Both the position numbers and the translations under genes were made by a program. A DNA stretch of 63,111 bases from Ruminococcus sp. (GTDB taxonomy: Bacteria; Bacillota; Clostridia; Oscillospirales; Ruminococcaceae), in the NCBI GenBank assembly GCA_022768805.1, contig JALELB010000064.1, forward strand, positions 1 to 63,111, written 5' to 3'. The notes beneath the pieces are model-generated. The model saw nothing but the letters and a program-made list of their open reading frames with translations. It made no database searches and was not told where the DNA came from. Numbering within the stretch: the stretch's first letter is position 1; each line of letters starts with the position of its first letter. Shown piece by piece: positions 43,047-51,072 of this stretch.

Positions 43047-44324
43047 TCATCTGAACATGTACTGGGCATAACCGTTTGCGTGCAGCCAGGCTTCTGCCTG
43101 TTCCCGTTCCTGCTGCCGGAAGGAACGCTCCCGGAAACAAGGAATAAGATGCATATCGCCGCAAAGCTCCTGGGCAATAGGCATCAGAACCTCCAGTCTT
43201 TCCGGCATGCTCATTCCGGAAAGATTCACCTTTGCGTTATTGTACCAGAAAGAATCCCGGAAGGAATTGGGGTCAATGTACACCACTGCGCTCTGGGTAT
43301 TGAGTATCACCGGCTGCAAAGCCTCTGCATCCCGGTTCAGCGCATCATAAAGGGAAAAGCCGTACATGGCGGCACCGCCCTGGTCTGATGCGGTCTGGTT
43401 TACACTGTTGAGCACCCGGATCAGAGCCTCCGCCCGGGTTTGCCGGTTCTGCACCTGATTTCCAAGCAGTTCTAGGTCCGTATCGTAAAAGGCAGGGTAC
43501 TCCAGATCCGTGCAAAGAATAAGCGGAAATCCCGCCTGCATGATTTCGCCGGTCAGCGCCTGTAAATACCCGATTGCAGAATCCGAAAAGGGCGACATCC
43601 AGGGCTTTCCGCTCTTTTCCGGCTTATTGTCCAGCCAGCGGCTGAAGCCATCTTCCAGCAGAAAGCCGGCAGTGGGATCATAAGCCGGATAATATGTATC
43701 CTCCAGCAGGGCAAGCTGCGCTATACCGGATAGCTGATGAGCCTGGAGTGCCTGTGCAATCTCCGCTATGGTCAGTGCTGCATCCCCGGTTGCTCCGCTG
43801 GCAGAAGCCCCCTGGACCTCCGAACGGTACAGCAAAGCACCGCCCTCACACTTGAGGGGCACAATCACACAGCTCCCCGCCGGCAGCTCCGCCAGTGCTG
43901 CATCCAGGGCAAAGGTGCTTTTTAGTGCATCCTCCCCGAGGCAATAGCCCACATACGTATAGGATTTTAGCCCGATGTCTGCTGTTGGCACGGCAGTTGT
44001 GGTGAATTGGGCAGTCGTTGTTTCCGTGGATACATCAGGCGGTACCGCAGTTGTTGTTTGTGGGACGGATGTGACTTCTGGAAGAGATGAATCCTCCGTG
44101 ACCATCCGGGATGGCTCCGGTGCAGAGTCTTCACTCCCCCGCCATTTGTGCCACAACCGGCTGAGGGGACCGGCGGCAAAATAACCTGCTGCCACCAGCA
44201 ACAGGATAATTAGGATGGTCAGCAGCACGGACAGAACGGAACGAAACCGATGCCTGGTATGGAACATATTGCGCTGTCGGCCGCGGTAGGCATAGACCTT
44301 GCGGCGTCTGGGCTCTTTTTTCAT
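43047..44324 (-). CDS. Membrane-anchored hydrolase-like protein (DUF4015-like, tentative)
   Basis: A 425-residue protein: basic cytoplasmic segment of about 35 residues, one membrane helix (LSVLLTILIILLLVAAGYFA), a Thr/Pro/Ser-rich stalk, then a globular domain of about 300 residues. The domain shows alternating strands and helices like a TIM barrel, with YVGYCLGEDALKS, CVIVPLKCEGGALLYRS, PWMSPFSDSAIGYLQALTGE and GFPLILCTDLEYPAF. This order resembles putative glycoside hydrolases of the DUF4015 type, but the usual acidic DYVRFP-like motif is replaced by TDLEYPAF. Activity on cell-wall glycans is a guess. It sits between the rnfA-like gene and yitT. Confidence 0.6.
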   Translation of the reverse strand: MKKEPRRRKVYAYRGRQRNMFHTRHRFRSVLSVLLTILIILLLVAAGYFAAGPLSRLWHKWRGSEDSAPEPSRMVTEDSSLPEVTSVPQTTTAVPPDVSTETTTAQFTTTAVPTADIGLKSYTYVGYCLGEDALKSTFALDAALAELPAGSCVIVPLKCEGGALLYRSEVQGASASGATGDAALTIAEIAQALQAHQLSGIAQLALLEDTYYPAYDPTAGFLLEDGFSRWLDNKPEKSGKPWMSPFSDSAIGYLQALTGEIMQAGFPLILCTDLEYPAFYDTDLELLGNQVQNRQTRAEALIRVLNSVNQTASDQGGAAMYGFSLYDALNRDAEALQPVILNTQSAVVYIDPNSFRDSFWYNNAKVNLSGMSMPERLEVLMPIAQELCGDMHLIPCFRERSFRQQEREQAEAWLHANGYAQYMFR

Positions 44325-44385: not shown

Positions 44386-44949
44386 TTATTTCATGTTCGC
44401 TGCGTAAAGTGCCATACTCAATATGCCGATATACAGCAGGATGGCAGGATAGCCCCGCACGCTGGCGGGAACACGGTCACAGGTCAGTTTAGGATACACT
44501 GCCTTCAGTGCCCATGCGCCCACAACAAAGCCAAGACCGGAGACAGCACCGAATTGCAGGCTTGCGGCAAGACTGGTGCTCTGGGCGGCGCTGAGCAGCA
44601 GGGTGCCCAGCACGGCACAGTTGAAGGTGCAAAGGTGCACATATTTGCGGAAACGGAGAAAGGTGGGTCTGCCTACCGCCTGCAGCAGCACCAGCAGCAG
44701 AATATACAGCACAGCCAGCACCAGGATATAGGCTGCGGGCCGGTATGCGGTATCCAGCGCCGGAAACAGACGGTTGATGCCGTAGGTGATACCGCAGCCA
44801 ACCGTGGTCAGCAGAGTGACCATCAGCCCAATCCCGACGAAATCTGTTTTGCTTTTGGCAGAAGCGGTAATGGTGCTGATGCCCAGAGCCTTGGTAAAGA
44901 TCAGATTGGCTGTAAAGGCAGTCAGGATCAATGAAAGGAAAGGCGTCAT
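44386..44949 (-). CDS. rnfA: RnfA-like membrane subunit lacking one cluster cysteine
   Basis: A 187-residue six-helix protein of the RnfA/NqrE family. In redox-active RnfA one Cys of the intramembrane [2Fe-2S] site lies in FLGICPFLG and another in NCAVLG. Here the first reads ALGISTITA (Cys to Ser) and the second, FNCAVLGTLLL, is kept. The family tail (RVPASVRGYPAILLYIGILSMAL) is normal. The start overlaps the rnfE-like stop (ATGA). With RnfE it would normally form the centre of the Rnf ion pump. Loss of the Cys suggests no cluster. Confidence 0.85.
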   Translation of the reverse strand: MTPFLSLILTAFTANLIFTKALGISTITASAKSKTDFVGIGLMVTLLTTVGCGITYGINRLFPALDTAYRPAAYILVLAVLYILLLVLLQAVGRPTFLRFRKYVHLCTFNCAVLGTLLLSAAQSTSLAASLQFGAVSGLGFVVGAWALKAVYPKLTCDRVPASVRGYPAILLYIGILSMALYAANMK

Positions 44950-45560
44950 GAAGCATGCTCCTTTCTTTGCCGGAACAGGATCCGGAGTTTATGGAAGCAG
45001 ACTGCCAGCAAACCGGTAACCAGGAACCCGCCCGGAGTGGTGGCCAGCCCCGGCATGGTGTGCCGGAAGCCGGTCAGGGTGCCGAACATGGTGCCGTAGG
45101 CGAGAAGCTCCCGGATAAAGCCTACCAGGAGCGCTGCAAGATCAAAGCCCAGGATATAGCAGAGGAGTGTGACAAACAGGGTGACACCGTCCTGCCGGTT
45201 AAAGAGGAATTCGGTCTGGGTGGTCACAAGACTGCTCACTGTCAGCAGGGGCAGATAAATGCCCATGGCCTCCACCTCCTCCGGAAAAGAGGAAACACAG
45301 ACCTTGGCAATGGGGACATACACCAGGGCGGCGATCAGACTGTATACTATAATACGAAGCCCGTAGACCAGCCGGCGGGGCACAAAGGCTGAAAGCATAA
45401 CGGAAATGAAGGTAAGCACGGAAAATACCAGGGACAGCACAAGCGCATGGGCAAGCGTATCCGCACATACGATGACCGGTCCGGAAATAAGTCCGCCGAT
45501 GAGCACCGGGTTTTTGTAGAAAAAGCCGTCATAGATGGTTTTTTTGCGTTTAGTCCCCAT
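44946..45560 (-). CDS. rnfE: RnfE-like membrane subunit lacking cluster cysteines
   Basis: A 204-residue protein of the RnfE/NqrD family with about six helices. The family motifs GLCPTLAV and VNCIILGRAE, which carry the two cluster Cys, read LISGPVIV and VSSLVTTQTE here, so both ligands are missing. AMGIYLPLL and the helix order are kept. The ATG follows GGAGGT by eight bases, inside the end of rnfD. The rnfG gene that usually precedes rnfE is absent. Confidence 0.85.
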   Translation of the reverse strand: MGTKRKKTIYDGFFYKNPVLIGGLISGPVIVCADTLAHALVLSLVFSVLTFISVMLSAFVPRRLVYGLRIIVYSLIAALVYVPIAKVCVSSFPEEVEAMGIYLPLLTVSSLVTTQTEFLFNRQDGVTLFVTLLCYILGFDLAALLVGFIRELLAYGTMFGTLTGFRHTMPGLATTPGGFLVTGLLAVCFHKLRILFRQRKEHAS

Positions 45561-46509
45561 GCTGTTCCACCTCCTGTTCCCGGCGTCTGCGCCGGTACAG
45601 CTGTCTGCGCCGGGCATATTCCAGCTGCCAGCTCTGGGTTCTGAGGAACTGGGCAAGAGGGCTGAGCAGCACAGCAGTAATCACCACGGCATATTCAATG
45701 TCTGTAATGGTAGTCAGATACAGTGTCAGGATTCCTGCAAGGGTGCCGTAGAGAATGCCCCCCAGGCTTTTCGGCGCAATCCGCTGATCGGAAATGAGAA
45801 ACATGGCACCGAACAGGGTCATATTGCAGCCCAGCAGCTTCATCCCATATGCGGAGTCTGCTCCCGTCACGACGCAAACCAGCAGATACTGTGCCAGAAA
45901 GCTCACAAGGGTGGATATGGACACACTGCGCCGGGCAATCAGAATCACTGCTCCCACTGTCAGCAGCAGGATGCATCCTGTGCCCATGGGTCCAGGAAAT
46001 GCGCCCAGCAGCAGCTTGTCGGTCAGATTGATCATCCGGTTTGTATTAAACTGGGCGGATGCGGATATGGTGCATGCCGCATCAATCTGATTCCCAAGAG
46101 ACAGAGCCGTACCGGGCTGGGGAAACTGAAGCAGCTCAGAGCCAAATGCAAGAATTGAAAAGGTATACCCCACGGCTGCCGGCGGAAACAGCAGGTTTGC
46201 TCTGCCGCCAAACAAGGCTTTTCCAATGATAATCGCAGCAAAACAGGTTATGATAAGCGTATCATAGCGCACGGATGCGGGCATCATCAGGGTCAGCGTC
46301 AGCCCTGTGTTTACAGCGTCCAGATGGGCTGCACGTATGGGCCGATGCCGCAGATGCAGACATGCAGCGTCCAGTGCCAGACAGGTGCCTGCTGCAATCA
46401 GCGCCAGGATCAGAACCCGGACGCCGTAATAATAGCTGGAAAGGATGAGCAGTGCCAGCTGGACAACAAACAGATCCAGCACAACGGCGGCTGCCGTTTT
46501 TCTTTGCAA
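45550..46509 (-). CDS. rnfD: RnfD-like membrane subunit with altered flavin site
   Basis: A 319-residue protein with about ten membrane helices of the RnfD/NqrB family. HLDAVNTGLTLTLMMPA, FGGRANLLFPPAAVG and LLGAFPGPMG are family landmarks. The covalent FMN site, usually SGAT or SATP with Thr as the attachment residue, reads TISASAQFN here, so Thr is replaced by Ser or missing. The start is TTG, placed eight bases after AGGAGG; no ATG fits. First gene of the operon. rnfC, rnfG and rnfB are not nearby. Confidence 0.87.
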   Translation of the reverse strand: MQRKTAAAVVLDLFVVQLALLILSSYYYGVRVLILALIAAGTCLALDAACLHLRHRPIRAAHLDAVNTGLTLTLMMPASVRYDTLIITCFAAIIIGKALFGGRANLLFPPAAVGYTFSILAFGSELLQFPQPGTALSLGNQIDAACTISASAQFNTNRMINLTDKLLLGAFPGPMGTGCILLLTVGAVILIARRSVSISTLVSFLAQYLLVCVVTGADSAYGMKLLGCNMTLFGAMFLISDQRIAPKSLGGILYGTLAGILTLYLTTITDIEYAVVITAVLLSPLAQFLRTQSWQLEYARRRQLYRRRRREQEVEQHGD

Positions 46510-46552
46510 TGAGGACACCTCCTTGAATCTTATGTGAAAGGAACAGCCGTGT

Positions 46553-47170
46553 ATGACCATGTATCGGATCGGTCCCTCCGCCGTAAAGATCCATCTGACC
46601 GGGGCGGAGCTGCGTGCATATCGGGTCACCTTTGATTTGTTCGGAAAGAATGAGCCGGCGGTGGTGCGCCTGCTGGAGGATCTGGTGGTTGCAGCGGTCC
46701 GTCGATTCGCTCTTCCCTTTTCCGGCAGCAGGCTGTGTGTGGAAGTATTTGCACGCAGGGATGGAGGCTGTTATATTTATCTGTCCGCAGCGGAGGATCC
46801 GGAACGGACCGGAGCGGTACAGGATGTGATGCTGTATGAATTTGAACGGATGGCAGATCTGGTCCAGTGCTGCAGGGGCTGCCTGGCATGCTGGCCGGCT
46901 TGTGGAGAAAGCGCCTGTTACAGGAACGCCGGATGCTACCGGCTGGTATTCCGTGTACCCCGGCCGGATGAAAACCGGATCTGTATGCATATGGGGGAAT
47001 TCGGTACCCAGGCAGAAGCTACGCCCCAGCTTCTGGCACAGACCCTGGAGCATTTTCAGTGCATTGCTTCCGGAGATGCGGTCACACGGCTTGCGGGTTG
47101 GTGTTCTCTCCCCGTACCAGAGCCGCCGCCAGGGCAGGATCCGGAGACTGGAAGAGATAACTGCCCGTAA
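46553..47170 (+). CDS. mecA: Adaptor protein MecA-like
   Basis: A 205-residue protein. The N-terminal domain (YRIGPSAVKIHLTGAELRAY, TFDLFGKN) matches the substrate-binding half of MecA, and FARRDGGCYIYLSA matches the linker start. The C-terminal half, which contacts ClpC in Bacillus, is more diverged and cysteine rich (CCRGCLACWPACG). The gene lies divergently 43 bases from rnfD and overlaps the 3' end of rpe by 89 bases on the opposite strand. The start is the ATG ten bases after AGGA. Confidence 0.72.
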   Translation: MTMYRIGPSAVKIHLTGAELRAYRVTFDLFGKNEPAVVRLLEDLVVAAVRRFALPFSGSRLCVEVFARRDGGCYIYLSAAEDPERTGAVQDVMLYEFERMADLVQCCRGCLACWPACGESACYRNAGCYRLVFRVPRPDENRICMHMGEFGTQAEATPQLLAQTLEHFQCIASGDAVTRLAGWCSLPVPEPPPGQDPETGRDNCP

Positions 47171-47741
47171 CCAGCTCGCTGGCACCGGCTCCACGGGCAA
47201 GAGAAGCCGTTTTCTCGTTAATGCCCCCGTCCACCTGGATGCACAGGTCAGGAAATGCCCGGTGAAGCTGTCGGATCTTATCCGTCATGTCCGGCAGATA
47301 GCTTTGTCCGCCGAAGCCTGGCTCCACTGTCATCACCAACACCATATCCGTCAGAGAAAGGAAGGGAAATACAGCTTCCGGCGGTGTTGCAGGCTTCAGG
47401 GCGATGCCTGCTTTGCAGCCTGTACTGCGGATTGCCTCCAGTGTGGCCCGGGGATCACTGTTGCTTTCCAGGTGAAAGGTAATCCGGTCTGCGCCCGCTT
47501 CTGCAAAGGCCTGGGCATAGCGAAGGGGATCGGTAATCATGAGGTGAACATCCAGAAACATGTCCGTGTAGCTGCGCACGGCGGAAAGCATGGGGATGCC
47601 AAAGGAAATATTCGGTACAAATATCCCGTCCATGACATCGAAATGGAGCATATCCACCTGCCATGCACGAAGCTTGTCAAGTTCATCTGCCAGATGACAG
47701 ATATCTGCGCTTAAAATGGATGCGGAAACAATTGTATTCAC
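47082..47741 (-). CDS. rpe: Ribulose-phosphate 3-epimerase
   Basis: Interconverts ribulose 5-phosphate and xylulose 5-phosphate. A 219-residue TIM barrel with SASILSADICHLADEL, HFDVMDGIFVPNISFG (metal His/Asp), LDVHLMI, MTVEPGFGGQ and QVDGGIN. The start is GTG: GGAGGT stands four bases before it. It is convergent with the mecA-like gene and overlaps it by 89 bases. Confidence 0.96.
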   Translation of the reverse strand: MNTIVSASILSADICHLADELDKLRAWQVDMLHFDVMDGIFVPNISFGIPMLSAVRSYTDMFLDVHLMITDPLRYAQAFAEAGADRITFHLESNSDPRATLEAIRSTGCKAGIALKPATPPEAVFPFLSLTDMVLVMTVEPGFGGQSYLPDMTDKIRQLHRAFPDLCIQVDGGINEKTASLARGAGASELVTGSYLFQSPDPALAAALVRGENTNPQAV

Positions 47742-47784
47742 TTGAACCTCCAAAAAAGCCGGTTATTTATCCATACTTATTTAT

Positions 47785-48078: not shown

Positions 48079-51072
48079 ATGAAGTTCAGGTTGAACCGCC
48101 TGATCGGCATGCTGTCTGCTGCTGCGATGGCATGCACCTGTCTGGCAGGCATGCCAGGCATCACTGAAATTCAGAATGTACAAGCAGCATCCAGTTACTA
48201 CCGCTTTGATTTCGGCGCCGGCGGCACGGAAAACGGCTATACCGGGGTCAGTGCTTCTACTGGGTATTCTGCACAGCAGGGCTATGGCTTCCGCACACCG
48301 GCCAATATGAAGGATGTGGCCGCCTCCGGCAGCGGCGCATTGAGCGATGCGGTCCAGTTCGTCACCTACGGCACTTCCACGGACAATACCTTTGATGTGG
48401 ATCTGGATAACGGGCTCTATCAGGTTACGGTCACCCTTGGCAACACCAATCGGACCAGCGTTGCGGCAGAGGGGGTTTATCAGCTGATGAACCTGACCGG
48501 AAATAATGCAACGGATACCTTTCAGATTCCGATTACGGATGGTCAGCTGAATATCAACTGCACCGCCGGCAAGGAAGGCTATCCCTATACCCTCAGCGCA
48601 CTGGAAATTAAAAAGCTGTCAGATAATCCTACAATGAAGCCAACCATCTGGCTGTGCGGGGATTCCACTGTGTGCAACTACTATCCCCTTGCCACCAGCA
48701 CCCAGGCCGGCTGGGGACAGATCTTTCCCGATTTCATCAATACGGACGTGTATCAGGTCCGCAATATGGCGACCGGCGGACAGTACGCAGAAGCCTTTAT
48801 GAACGATGGTCAGTTTGATGCCATTTTGAAGTATATCAAACCCGGTGACTATTATATCATCTCCATCGGTATCAATGATACCAACTACTCCAACCAGGAT
48901 GCCTATTACAATGCCCTTACATCCATGACCCAGCGGGCAAAGGCCAAGGGGGCAACAGTTATTCTGGTTGCCCAGCAGGGCCGGCAGGGAGATATTTCAA
49001 ATTCCGCACTGAATGCGGACAGCGGCCGCTGGTTCAATGGCACGGTCAAGCAGGTAGCCAGTGAACAGAATGTACAGTGCATTGACCTGTTCAAGCTGTT
49101 CTATAATTACTGCAAATCCGTGGGACAGGCAGTTACTGATACCCTGTATATCGATACGGACACCCTGCATCCCAACCGGGCAGGTGCAACCGTGCTTGCA
49201 GAGCTGGTGGCAAAGAATGTTTCCTTTTCCACCGTGGCGGAACAGCCCGGCGCAGACCTGCCTGCTGACTCCACCTATCAGATTCAGAATGTAAACAGCG
49301 GTCTGTATCTGGAGGTGCAGGATGGAAAGGCTGAAAACGGTGCCAATGTGCAGCAGTGGGGCGCAGAAAGTGTACAGCCCCATAATTTGTGGAAGGTCGT
49401 TCCCTCCGGACAACATGACGGCTATTACTATATCTACTCCATGCTGGGTGACGGCAGCACCTTCCTGCTGGACGTGGATTACGGCAGGACGGAGGATGGA
49501 ACCAATATCGGCATCTACGGTAACACCAATTCCGACGCACAGCTGTATAAATTCATCGACTGCGGCGATGGCACCTACCAGATTGCCACTAAGGTAACCA
49601 GCAGCCACAGCGTTCTGATGCCCGCAGACAGCTCTACTGCCAATGGCGCAAATGTGATTGAGTCTGCCTATACCGGTCTTTCCTCCCAGCGCTGGAAGCT
49701 GGAACAGGCGTCCCTTCCTTCTGTCACCACAGAACCTGCTAAGACGCTCATTAAGGGCGACCTGAATGACGATAGCATCCTGAACGGTATGGATATTGTC
49801 CTGTTCCGGCAGGGGATGGTCAGCGGCTTTGGCAGCAGAACGCTTTCTTTTGCGGCGGATGTGAATTATGACGGCGATGTTTCAATTGCCGATCTGTTGC
49901 TGCTGAATCAATATGTTACCCGCATTATCCGGGAAATTCCCGCTGCCCGGATTGCCCGGTATGATGCCGTCAAGGCAGACTTTACCCAGGGCATTTTTGA
50001 AACCGTCAACGCCGGCTATACGGCTGAGGCTTATCTTAATCTGAATAACGAGATTGGCAGCGGTGTAACCTTTCAGGTTTCCGTTCCGAAAACCGGGAAT
50101 TACCTGGTCACCTTCCGGATTGCAAACGGCAGTGTCAACAACCGCCCAATGATGCTCAGCGTCAACGGTGGAGCAGATCGCTGGCTGCAGGATTTTCTGA
50201 CCACAGGTGCATGGACCACCTGGGAGGATCGGGGAATCGTATTGCCCCTGCAGGCTGGCATCAACAGCATCACTGCCGTTTCCAACACGCCGGAGGGCGG
50301 CCCCAATATGGACTATATTACCCTGGAGCAGACGGATGAACCCATTGCAGAAACCTATGAGGAACCGGCGGAGACCCAGCCTGTCAGCGGAGCATCCACC
50401 ATTTATATTGCCGGAGATTCCACTGTCCAGACCTATCGGGCAAGCTACGCACCGCAGCAGGGCTGGGGGGCATATCTGGCGGATTACTTTGACAGCTCCA
50501 TAGCAGTCAGCAACCACGCCATCGCAGGCAGAAGCTCCAAGAGCTTTTATGACAACGGCAGGCTGGATACCATCCTTGGCGAGATTCAGCCGGGAGATTA
50601 TCTGATGGTTCAGTTCGGCATCAATGACTCGGCTTCCTCCAACGCAGAACGCTATGCACCGGTGTGCGGCGCAGTTACGAATCCAACAGAGGGCTCCTTT
50701 GAATTCTATATTGAAAAGTATGTGGAAGGCGCATTGGAAAAGGGTGCAACGCCGATTCTGGTTACCACCGTTATCGGACTGAAGGCATACTCCAACGGGA
50801 GCTTTGTCAACAGCTACGGCACCTACTGCCAGGCCATGAAGGATATTGCGGCACAGTACAGTATCCCCTGCATTGATCTGAACAGTCTGATGGTTGCCCA
50901 TTACAATGCCGTTGGTTATGACACCGCCTATACCTATCATCTGATTTCAGCGGTGGAGGGCAGCACGGATATGACCCACTTTACAGAAACCGGCGCAAAG
51001 GCCGTTGCCAATCTGGTGGCCCAGGCAGTGAAAAATCAGAATATCCAACCCCTTGCGTCCCATGTCAAATAA
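48079..51072 (+). CDS. Cellulosomal double CE12-like esterase with dockerin
   Basis: A 997-residue secreted enzyme. Order: signal peptide (1-36); beta-rich domain (about 38-175); first SGNH esterase (about 188-385), GDST with Ser196, GINDTN, and D361-x-x-H364; a ricin-type CBM13-like domain (about 395-545); a type I dockerin (559-622) with two calcium loops, DLNDDSILNGMD and DVNYDGDVSIAD; a CBM35-like domain (about 635-745); second esterase (about 765-985) with Ser781, GINDSA and D964-x-x-H967. Both triads look complete. CE12 enzymes remove acetyl groups from rhamnogalacturonan or xylan. The dockerin attaches it to a cellulosome scaffoldin. No scaffoldin or cohesin is in the window. Single-gene unit. 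Confidence 0.9.
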   Translation: MKFRLNRLIGMLSAAAMACTCLAGMPGITEIQNVQAASSYYRFDFGAGGTENGYTGVSASTGYSAQQGYGFRTPANMKDVAASGSGALSDAVQFVTYGTSTDNTFDVDLDNGLYQVTVTLGNTNRTSVAAEGVYQLMNLTGNNATDTFQIPITDGQLNINCTAGKEGYPYTLSALEIKKLSDNPTMKPTIWLCGDSTVCNYYPLATSTQAGWGQIFPDFINTDVYQVRNMATGGQYAEAFMNDGQFDAILKYIKPGDYYIISIGINDTNYSNQDAYYNALTSMTQRAKAKGATVILVAQQGRQGDISNSALNADSGRWFNGTVKQVASEQNVQCIDLFKLFYNYCKSVGQAVTDTLYIDTDTLHPNRAGATVLAELVAKNVSFSTVAEQPGADLPADSTYQIQNVNSGLYLEVQDGKAENGANVQQWGAESVQPHNLWKVVPSGQHDGYYYIYSMLGDGSTFLLDVDYGRTEDGTNIGIYGNTNSDAQLYKFIDCGDGTYQIATKVTSSHSVLMPADSSTANGANVIESAYTGLSSQRWKLEQASLPSVTTEPAKTLIKGDLNDDSILNGMDIVLFRQGMVSGFGSRTLSFAADVNYDGDVSIADLLLLNQYVTRIIREIPAARIARYDAVKADFTQGIFETVNAGYTAEAYLNLNNEIGSGVTFQVSVPKTGNYLVTFRIANGSVNNRPMMLSVNGGADRWLQDFLTTGAWTTWEDRGIVLPLQAGINSITAVSNTPEGGPNMDYITLEQTDEPIAETYEEPAETQPVSGASTIYIAGDSTVQTYRASYAPQQGWGAYLADYFDSSIAVSNHAIAGRSSKSFYDNGRLDTILGEIQPGDYLMVQFGINDSASSNAERYAPVCGAVTNPTEGSFEFYIEKYVEGALEKGATPILVTTVIGLKAYSNGSFVNSYGTYCQAMKDIAAQYSIPCIDLNSLMVAHYNAVGYDTAYTYHLISAVEGSTDMTHFTETGAKAVANLVAQAVKNQNIQPLASHVK

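Follow-up and report, generated by a model that had tools for sequence, protein, structure and literature searches.

The locus described here raises the question of what a set of Rnf-type membrane proteins may still do once most of the residues that hold its redox cofactors have been replaced. The window, meaning the whole analysed stretch of 63,111 nucleotides from Ruminococcus sp. (assembly GCA_022768805.1, contig JALELB010000064.1), carries on its reverse strand, at 44386..46509, a trio of genes designated here D', E' and A'. Comparison of their sequences with those of relatives led us to conclude that the trio is conserved and very probably not a redox pump. D' (45550..46509, TTG start at 46509) encodes an RnfD-like membrane protein of 319 amino acids, E' (44946..45560, ATG start at 45560) an RnfE/NqrD-like protein of 204 amino acids, and A' (44386..44949, ATG start at 44949) an RnfA/NqrE-like protein of 187 amino acids. 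All three open reading frames were intact, each start was preceded by a Shine-Dalgarno-like sequence, and the genes overlapped by 11 bases (E'/D') and 4 bases (A'/E'), which bears out the intact, overlapping and well started D-E-A trio of a preliminary description of this DNA. Pfam scores were above the cut-off in each case (PF02508, 80.4 bits for A' and 81.8 bits for E'; PF03116, 128.5 bits for D'), and significant matches in the PDB were to RnfA and NqrE for A', RnfE and NqrD for E', and RnfD for D', with NqrB matched by D' at an E-value of 0.04 only. The subunit-specific cut-offs of NCBIfam were nevertheless missed by far, at 69.5 against 229.3 bits for A', 90.3 against 207.05 bits for D', and 38.3 against 213.4 bits (rnfE) or 47.1 against 184 bits (RsxE) for E'. 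In the window, no rnfG was found between D' and E', neither rnfB nor rnfC adjoined the trio, and no RnfG-like FMN_bind or nicotinamide adenine dinucleotide (NAD)-binding domain was detected among the nine scanned window proteins around it.

The fate of the cofactor sites was established by alignment with the Rnf complex of Acetobacterium woodii, the numbering of which is used throughout unless window residues are specified. Ligands were assigned after the available portion of PMC11889175, in which T156 of RnfD is the threonine carrying flavin mononucleotide (FMN), N123 and D249 of RnfD are riboflavin contacts, the R67/E115 ion pair of RnfE gates Na+, and N112 of RnfA is also among the residues given a role. 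Of the four cysteines of the intramembrane [2Fe-2S] cluster, C25 of RnfA was replaced by Ser25 in A' (ALGIST, 44875-44877), C25 of RnfE by Gly27 in E' (LISGP, 45480-45482) and C108 of RnfE by Ser110 in E' (VSS, 45231-45233), while C113 of RnfA was kept as Cys111 of A' (FNCAVLG, 44617-44619). In D', the FMN threonine T156 corresponded to Ser149 (SASA, 46063-46065), the riboflavin contact N123 to Pro109 (46183-46185) and N120 was likewise replaced, with D249 retained as Asp241 (45787-45789). The ion pair of RnfE was kept in E' as Arg69 (45354-45356) and Glu117 (45210-45212), as was N112 of RnfA (Asn110 of A'), and His105 (44635-44637) and Phe109 were new residues in A'. The loss of three of the four cysteines and the SASA reading of the FMN site, both claimed in the preliminary description, were thereby confirmed, and the family alignment gave no sign of ligands at shifted positions. 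A pairwise alignment with A. woodii RnfD had suggested that the FMN threonine might have moved to T147 of D', two positions N-terminal of Ser149; this was ruled out, as the family alignment set Ser149 at T156 and only 10 of 123 D' sequences had Thr at position 154.

The same replacements recurred across relatives. For residue counts, 27 canonical sequences were compared with two classes of degenerate loci: class II, which includes the window and comprises loci in which no RnfC-like gene (C') was found, although a few loci on cut contigs may be misplaced there (108 A', 110 E' and 106 D' sequences), and class I, with C' (21 sequences). Across all degenerate sequences, cysteine was never present at A C25 (0/126), E C25 (0/127) or E C108 (0/127). 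Position 25 of A was Cys in 26/27 canonical sequences as opposed to Ser in 102/108 of class II, in which no Cys occurred; E C25 was Cys in 27/27 canonical sequences and in none of class II (Ala in 60, Ser in 42); and E C108 was Cys in 26/27 canonical sequences as opposed to Ser in 96/110 of class II, again with no Cys. T156 of RnfD, invariant in the 27 canonical sequences, was Ser in 99/106 class II D' proteins, and N120 and N123, equally invariant in canonical RnfD, remained in only 18/106 and 44/106, respectively. A loose ApbE flavinylation motif, in the form that we take it to have, was matched by 21/27 canonical RnfD proteins as opposed to 1/106 D' proteins of class II and 0/21 of class I. 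Loss of the redox sites in the class of the window is well supported at the sequence level.

The emptied cluster site was not featureless, as it held new and strongly conserved residues, namely Ser25, Thr26, His107, Ser109 and Phe111 of A' and Ser108 of E'. Position 107 of A was Pro in 27/27 canonical sequences and His in 104/108 of class II, and position 111 was Phe in 103/108 of the latter. Residues related to the ion path were retained in parallel, with N112 of A present in 27/27 canonical and 108/108 class II sequences, R67 of E as Arg or Lys in 27/27 and 109/110, and E115 of E as Glu in 27/27 canonical sequences and as Glu (100) or Asp (5) in class II (n = 110). In class II, Ser25, His107, Phe111 and Asn112 of A', Ser108 of E' and Ser156 of D' were all among the top 28 columns of their own subunit by conservation, for which the median column scored 0.48 in A', 0.52 in E' and 0.42 in D'.

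A'-like proteins were found throughout the family of the window, and their loci shared a common organization. In 40 regions picked from A' matches, which took in the majority of the top-scoring ones and a range of weaker ones, the order was nearly uniform: rpe came first, followed in many of them by an oppositely oriented mecA-like gene, and then by D', E', A' and a gene encoding a DUF4015 protein. A scan of named genomes with the single A' protein as the query returned no relative; 80 named loci were added as the best 80 of 113 relatives from a closer-alignment scan, and the named loci therefore lean to class II. They include Ruminococcus flavefaciens strains, Massilioclostridium coli and many Oscillospiraceae assemblies. 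In total, 126 degenerate loci were collected, with rpe in 117, the DUF4015 gene in 115 and the mecA-like gene in 41; as some represent one genome held in two collections, 110 were distinct, with rpe in 104, the DUF4015 gene in 100 and the mecA-like gene in 33 (BLAST). No rnfC, rnfG or rnfB adjoined the trio in class II loci. Clusters of D, E and A without these partners, for which the preliminary description had proposed a search, are widespread in the family, those of class I carrying C'. E' scored at least 123 bits in at least 79 of 118 family genomes drawn at ≥90% completeness, the best canonical RnfE there reaching 121; this is a hand count and a lower bound, as confirmed members such as G055 score below 123 bits, and the ten lowest of the 79 (G080 down to G102) were all degenerate on inspection. 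Among 391 genomes of the taxonomic class, 30 loci were returned, of which 4 from the window's family and 3 from family f5 were degenerate and 23 were canonical Rnf, and 88 genomes of the order yielded one further degenerate locus; in both searches only returned loci were inspected, so that weaker members elsewhere may be missed. The further locus (L224, genome G648, family f103) shows that a degenerate D'-E'-A'-DUF4015 set also occurs beyond f1 and f5; its E' match contains one TGA.

Selection on these genes was evident from the ratio of nonsynonymous to synonymous substitution rates (dN/dS) between the window and orthologs in genome G001 (75-88% identical), which was 0.113 for A', 0.083 for E', 0.131 for D' and 0.130 for the DUF4015 gene, compared with 0.155 and 0.178 for the neighbours rpe and mecA. 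Together with recurrence across the family, these values support the earlier proposal that the genes are kept by selection. In a tree of 72 RnfA/RnfE-type sequences built by a quick method, the 22 A' proteins grouped as a single clade within RnfA and the 22 E' proteins as a single clade within RnfE, each with a Shimodaira-Hasegawa-like approximate likelihood ratio test (SH-aLRT) value of 100, which fits one old origin before families f1 and f5 parted. The trio is a genuine feature: it arose long ago, is widespread across the family and is maintained by selection.

The gene that follows A', left out of the preliminary description, encodes a DUF4015 protein of 425 amino acids (43047..44324, reverse strand). 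It matched PF13200 at 29.8 bits (cut-off 27) and had a PDB relative in 4s1a (profile E-value 2.6e-20), and PF13200 was matched by 50/50 aligned DUF4015 neighbours (E ≤ 0.01). The protein begins with a basic N-terminus, continues with a stretch of hydrophobic residues (about 24-58) and a Thr/Pro linker of low complexity, and then has the PF13200 domain, at the start of which a crude hydropathy scan also flagged residues 137-157. From this layout we infer a membrane-anchored, single-pass protein with an extracytoplasmic domain, the arrangement that the available portion of PMC11889175 gives for RnfG. The PF13200 domain is a putative glycosyl hydrolase. In comparison with 4s1a, D88, W108, D110, E134 and P151 were kept in nearly all of the 99 class II and 17 class I sequences, while the Asp of the FDYIRFP segment, which at a guess might be the catalytic acid, was retained in 25/99 and 11/17, respectively. 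In two loci the DUF4015 gene was shifted by about 2 kb from A' on the same strand (L065:5960-7156 and L152:10758-11954). The only DUF4015 paper found, as far as its figure legend goes, describes a fusion of DUF4015 to a YkyA domain (PMC12700454).

The preliminary description held that the trio had lost its partners. This stood as regards the locus itself, since no rnfG, rnfB or rnfC lies beside the trio, but not as regards the genome (1.91 Mb, 99.35% complete), in which a canonical rnf locus that it had also overlooked was present. This locus was split over two contigs: one end of C27 carries rnfC together with the first half of rnfD, and C46 the second half of rnfD followed by rnfG, E, A and B; the assembly break falls inside rnfD (G000:C27:1-434 and G000:C46:1-498). 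Genes beside rnfC on C27 are presumably ApbE-, NusG-II- and heptaprenyl-synthase-like, judging from their sequences. The sole FMN_bind match of the genome was the canonical rnfG. The trio is a second locus, separate from canonical rnf. Elsewhere, one locus of genome G338 in family f3 (L119/L096) encodes an Rnf with all of C, D, E, A and B plus a weak match to rnfG. Its RnfA C25 and RnfE C108 both correspond to Gly in the alignment, losses seen in no other canonical genome among those aligned; the [2Fe-2S] site may here have changed a second time, independently, without loss of the partners.

Class I, which the preliminary description did not mention either, appears to represent an older condition. 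Of 20 lower-scoring loci inspected, 19 were degenerate and one was canonical, and 15 of the 19 carried the RnfC-like gene C' between rpe and D'. Together with L072, L082, L120 and the f5 loci, this gave 22 C' sequences (L091 and L116 are the same locus). Both CxxCxxCxxxC motifs, corresponding to two [4Fe-4S] clusters, were kept in 22/22, and the GLGG start of the GLGGAGFP loop in 0/22 (L091 is cut before it); we take this loop to be the site for reduced NAD (NADH) and FMN. The riboflavin residues of RnfD were retained in class I (N120 and N123 in 21/21 each; D249 as Asp in 18 and Glu in 2 of 21), Cys was present at A C25, E C25 and E C108 in 0/21 each, and position 107 of A was Pro, Ala or Ser in 16/21. 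On a joined A'+E' tree (68 sequences), the C' loci formed the older, paraphyletic part, apart from the long-branched L209, which fell among class II, and C' changed about twice. With so few changes, the coincidence of C' loss with that of N120/N123 comes down to one or two events, and a paired sign test of the association was not significant.

With moderate confidence, the whole is best explained as an Rnf descendant without redox activity, which may couple ions to transport or transduction and have a partner outside the cytoplasm. The trio would be the membrane core of an ancient Rnf duplicate that no longer carries electrons. A' and E' may still alternate between inward and outward states, their remodelled cluster site binding a cation or polar substrate, in a cycle that would not be driven by cluster reduction any more. 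The DUF4015 protein would replace RnfG as the extracytoplasmic subunit, and with the trio it could use ion coupling for transport or force transduction on behalf of the cell envelope. The parts of this proposal differ in strength. It seems rather probable, from the retained residues and gene order, that the ion path is kept and that the DUF4015 protein is a partner; that transport or transduction at the envelope is the trio's actual job is put forward tentatively, as a prospect somewhat short of even. More speculative, and on balance unlikely, is a full scheme in which the ion gate of A'/E' is kept, the dead cluster site has become a Ser/Thr/His/Asn binding site and RnfG has given way to a membrane-anchored protein that binds or cleaves glycan, such that the ion gradient would power or control envelope work and the older [4Fe-4S] C' lineages would mark a half-way stage.

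Several observations weigh against this reading. The fourth cluster cysteine, A C113 (27/27 canonical), survived in 98/108 class II sequences and 115/126 of all degenerate A' proteins, as did D249 of RnfD (27/27 canonical; Asp in 90 and Glu in 12 of 106 in class II), so some loose cofactor could possibly bind, and attachment of flavin to the Ser that replaces the FMN threonine is conceivable. E115 was Glu in only 4/21 class I sequences, and the Na+ pair is therefore not a family-wide feature. The cluster site was rebuilt and the Na+ gate retained in class II, with no such retention of the gate in class I, which we read as a function specific to class II. The partnership with the DUF4015 protein rests on gene order, and its gene was absent in 10/110 distinct loci, namely all three distinct f5 loci, L046, L076, L077 and L161, plus L151, L157 and L174, in which the locus ends within 189 bases of A'. 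A crude hydropathy count gave E' 5 segments as opposed to 7 for the genome's RnfE, with A' equal to RnfA (6 segments) and D' equal to RnfD (9 segments). Finally, 48/50 trio genomes (at least 96% complete) had four PF02508 matches among the matches listed, which were read as the trio pair plus the canonical pair, and an association with canonical Rnf is therefore possible.

That association lends itself to the rival view that the trio is an accessory module of canonical Rnf, either forming hybrid complexes with RnfC, G and B supplied in trans or acting as a modulator or decoy of the pump. The genome of the window does encode the canonical set, so genes for the supply in trans that the preliminary description had envisaged are present, and the available text of a transcriptome paper counts an rnfDEA operon together with rnfCDGEAB as rnf operons (PMC10781979). 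With the intramembrane [2Fe-2S] site lost, however, electrons cannot cross A/E by the known transmembrane path, and the trio has a conserved neighbourhood of its own. Furthermore, G237 (99% complete) and G178 (97%), of one genus, had only two PF02508 matches among the matches listed and no RnfC_N match, so that the trio seems to persist there without a canonical RnfA/E pair or RnfC_N. An RnfC_N match was also absent from G091 and G074, which have four PF02508 matches, and FMN_bind had no match in G237 and one in G178, within a 148-amino-acid frame. An accessory role was therefore judged improbable, slightly more so than either redox sensing or scaffolding. On the view of redox sensing in place of redox pumping, C' with its two [4Fe-4S] clusters and riboflavin in D' would, in the older class, sense the state of ferredoxin and gate an ion path; class II, with the window, would have shed the sensing subunit and held on to the part that it gated. 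The retention of both motifs without a GLGG loop in all C' sequences, the older position of C' on the tree and the complete retention of N120 and N123 in D' proteins with C', set against their frequent loss without it, are in its favour; the few changes of C' and the non-significant sign test count against it, and for the class of the window it would explain ancestry only. We regard it as unlikely.

Equally doubtful is a role as scaffold only, in which D'E'A' would anchor the DUF4015 protein or wall enzymes and transport nothing. It agrees with the retention of subunits that have lost their redox sites, with the conserved DUF4015 neighbour and with the envelope-type genes near part of the 110 loci (21 have a PBP1A-like, 24 an MBOAT-like, 26 a DHHW-like and 38 a murB-like gene), but leaves the conservation of the buried former cluster site and of the R67/E115 gate unexplained. 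That the trio is a decaying paralog on its way to a pseudogene, as the loss of cofactor sites and partner genes might imply, is extremely improbable given dN/dS values of 0.08-0.13, intact and overlapping frames, new conserved residues, an origin before the f1/f5 split and the occurrence of E' in at least 79 of the 118 family genomes surveyed. Readings as a pseudogene or a sequencing error were ruled out by dN/dS, age and gene order.

The remaining neighbours of the trio were as follows. A gene for a MecA-like adaptor (46553..47170, forward strand; PF05389, 51.7 bits) diverges from D', the two starts lying 43 bases apart (46509-46553), and overlaps the 3' end of rpe, which encodes ribulose-phosphate 3-epimerase (47082..47753, reverse strand; TIGR01163, 239.6 bits) and is the conserved upstream neighbour. 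A putative Rex site and a rise on lactate are given for rpe of Caproicibacterium lactatifermentans in the available part of PMC9600882, which is not used as support here. Beside the trio's rpe lies a gene for a GDSL-type protein of 997 amino acids with a dockerin-like segment (48079-51072, forward strand). Dockerin-like proteins, presumably so from reading their sequences, also follow canonical rnf on C46, pointing to a cellulosome-bearing Ruminococcus relative. By names that we assigned in the same way, murB-, hprK-, rapZ-, whiA- and dnaE-like genes were nearby in 34-39/110 loci, and the PBP1A-like gene lay about 2 kb beyond the A' start; the DHHW- and MBOAT-like names are of the same kind.

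The trio family amounts to a natural experiment on electron-ion coupling in Rnf/Nqr, as the electron-carrier sites are gone and, in the class of the window, parts of the proposed ion gate are kept. It also implies that 'RnfD/E/A' annotations in Ruminococcaceae and Oscillospiraceae should be checked for ligands before they are counted as Rnf energy conservation. A case in point is Faecalibacterium duncaniae A2-165, for which a legend in PMC10781979 lists 'two putative rnf operons (rnfDEA, rnfCDGEAB)' as NADH:ferredoxin oxidoreductase, and the available text has them build a proton gradient. Like the trio, this rnfDEA consists of D, E and A and accompanies a separate rnfCDGEAB, in a gut bacterium related to that of the window, and, compared by gene content only, it probably belongs to the trio's family, although a Faecalibacterium 16S probe pattern had no match in the eight genomes checked; unlike here, it is treated in the available text as ordinary Rnf and seems to have been counted without a check of its ligands. 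No description of a cofactor-less Rnf was found in open-access full text, and the word rnfDEA was found there only in this paper, so that the earlier statement that no such system had been described holds for a cofactor-less Rnf, but not for the operon, which has been named once.

Compared with canonical Rnf (RnfCDGEAB of A. woodii and Clostridium tetanomorphum), the trio shares homologous D, E and A in the same order and keeps the R67/E115 pair, Asn112 and Asp249; it differs in having no adjoining G, B or C, in the replacement of three of four [2Fe-2S] cysteines, the FMN threonine and, in the window, N120/N123, and in the attached DUF4015 gene. With Na+-NQR it shares subunit families (NqrB, NqrD, NqrE), NqrE and NqrD being significant PDB matches, but its best scores are to Rnf subunits, it lacks the cofactor sites, and no NqrA, C or F is among its neighbours. 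The 'Nqr/Rnf-like' two-subunit systems of PMC10979944 are likewise a reduced set derived from NqrB/RnfD, with a D-like subunit lacking the flavinylation threonine; according to the available text, however, they retain both a flavoprotein resembling RnfG and a domain that binds NAD, which the trio lacks, are read as redox active by their authors and are described there without an A/E pair. RnfD/NqrB are stated, in the accessible part of PMC12174285, to be structurally related to the cofactor-free urea and ammonium channels, but the sequence of D' matches RnfD and not these channels. In its logic, the proposed envelope-work machine would be comparable to MotAB and ExbBD, although it would be built from Rnf.

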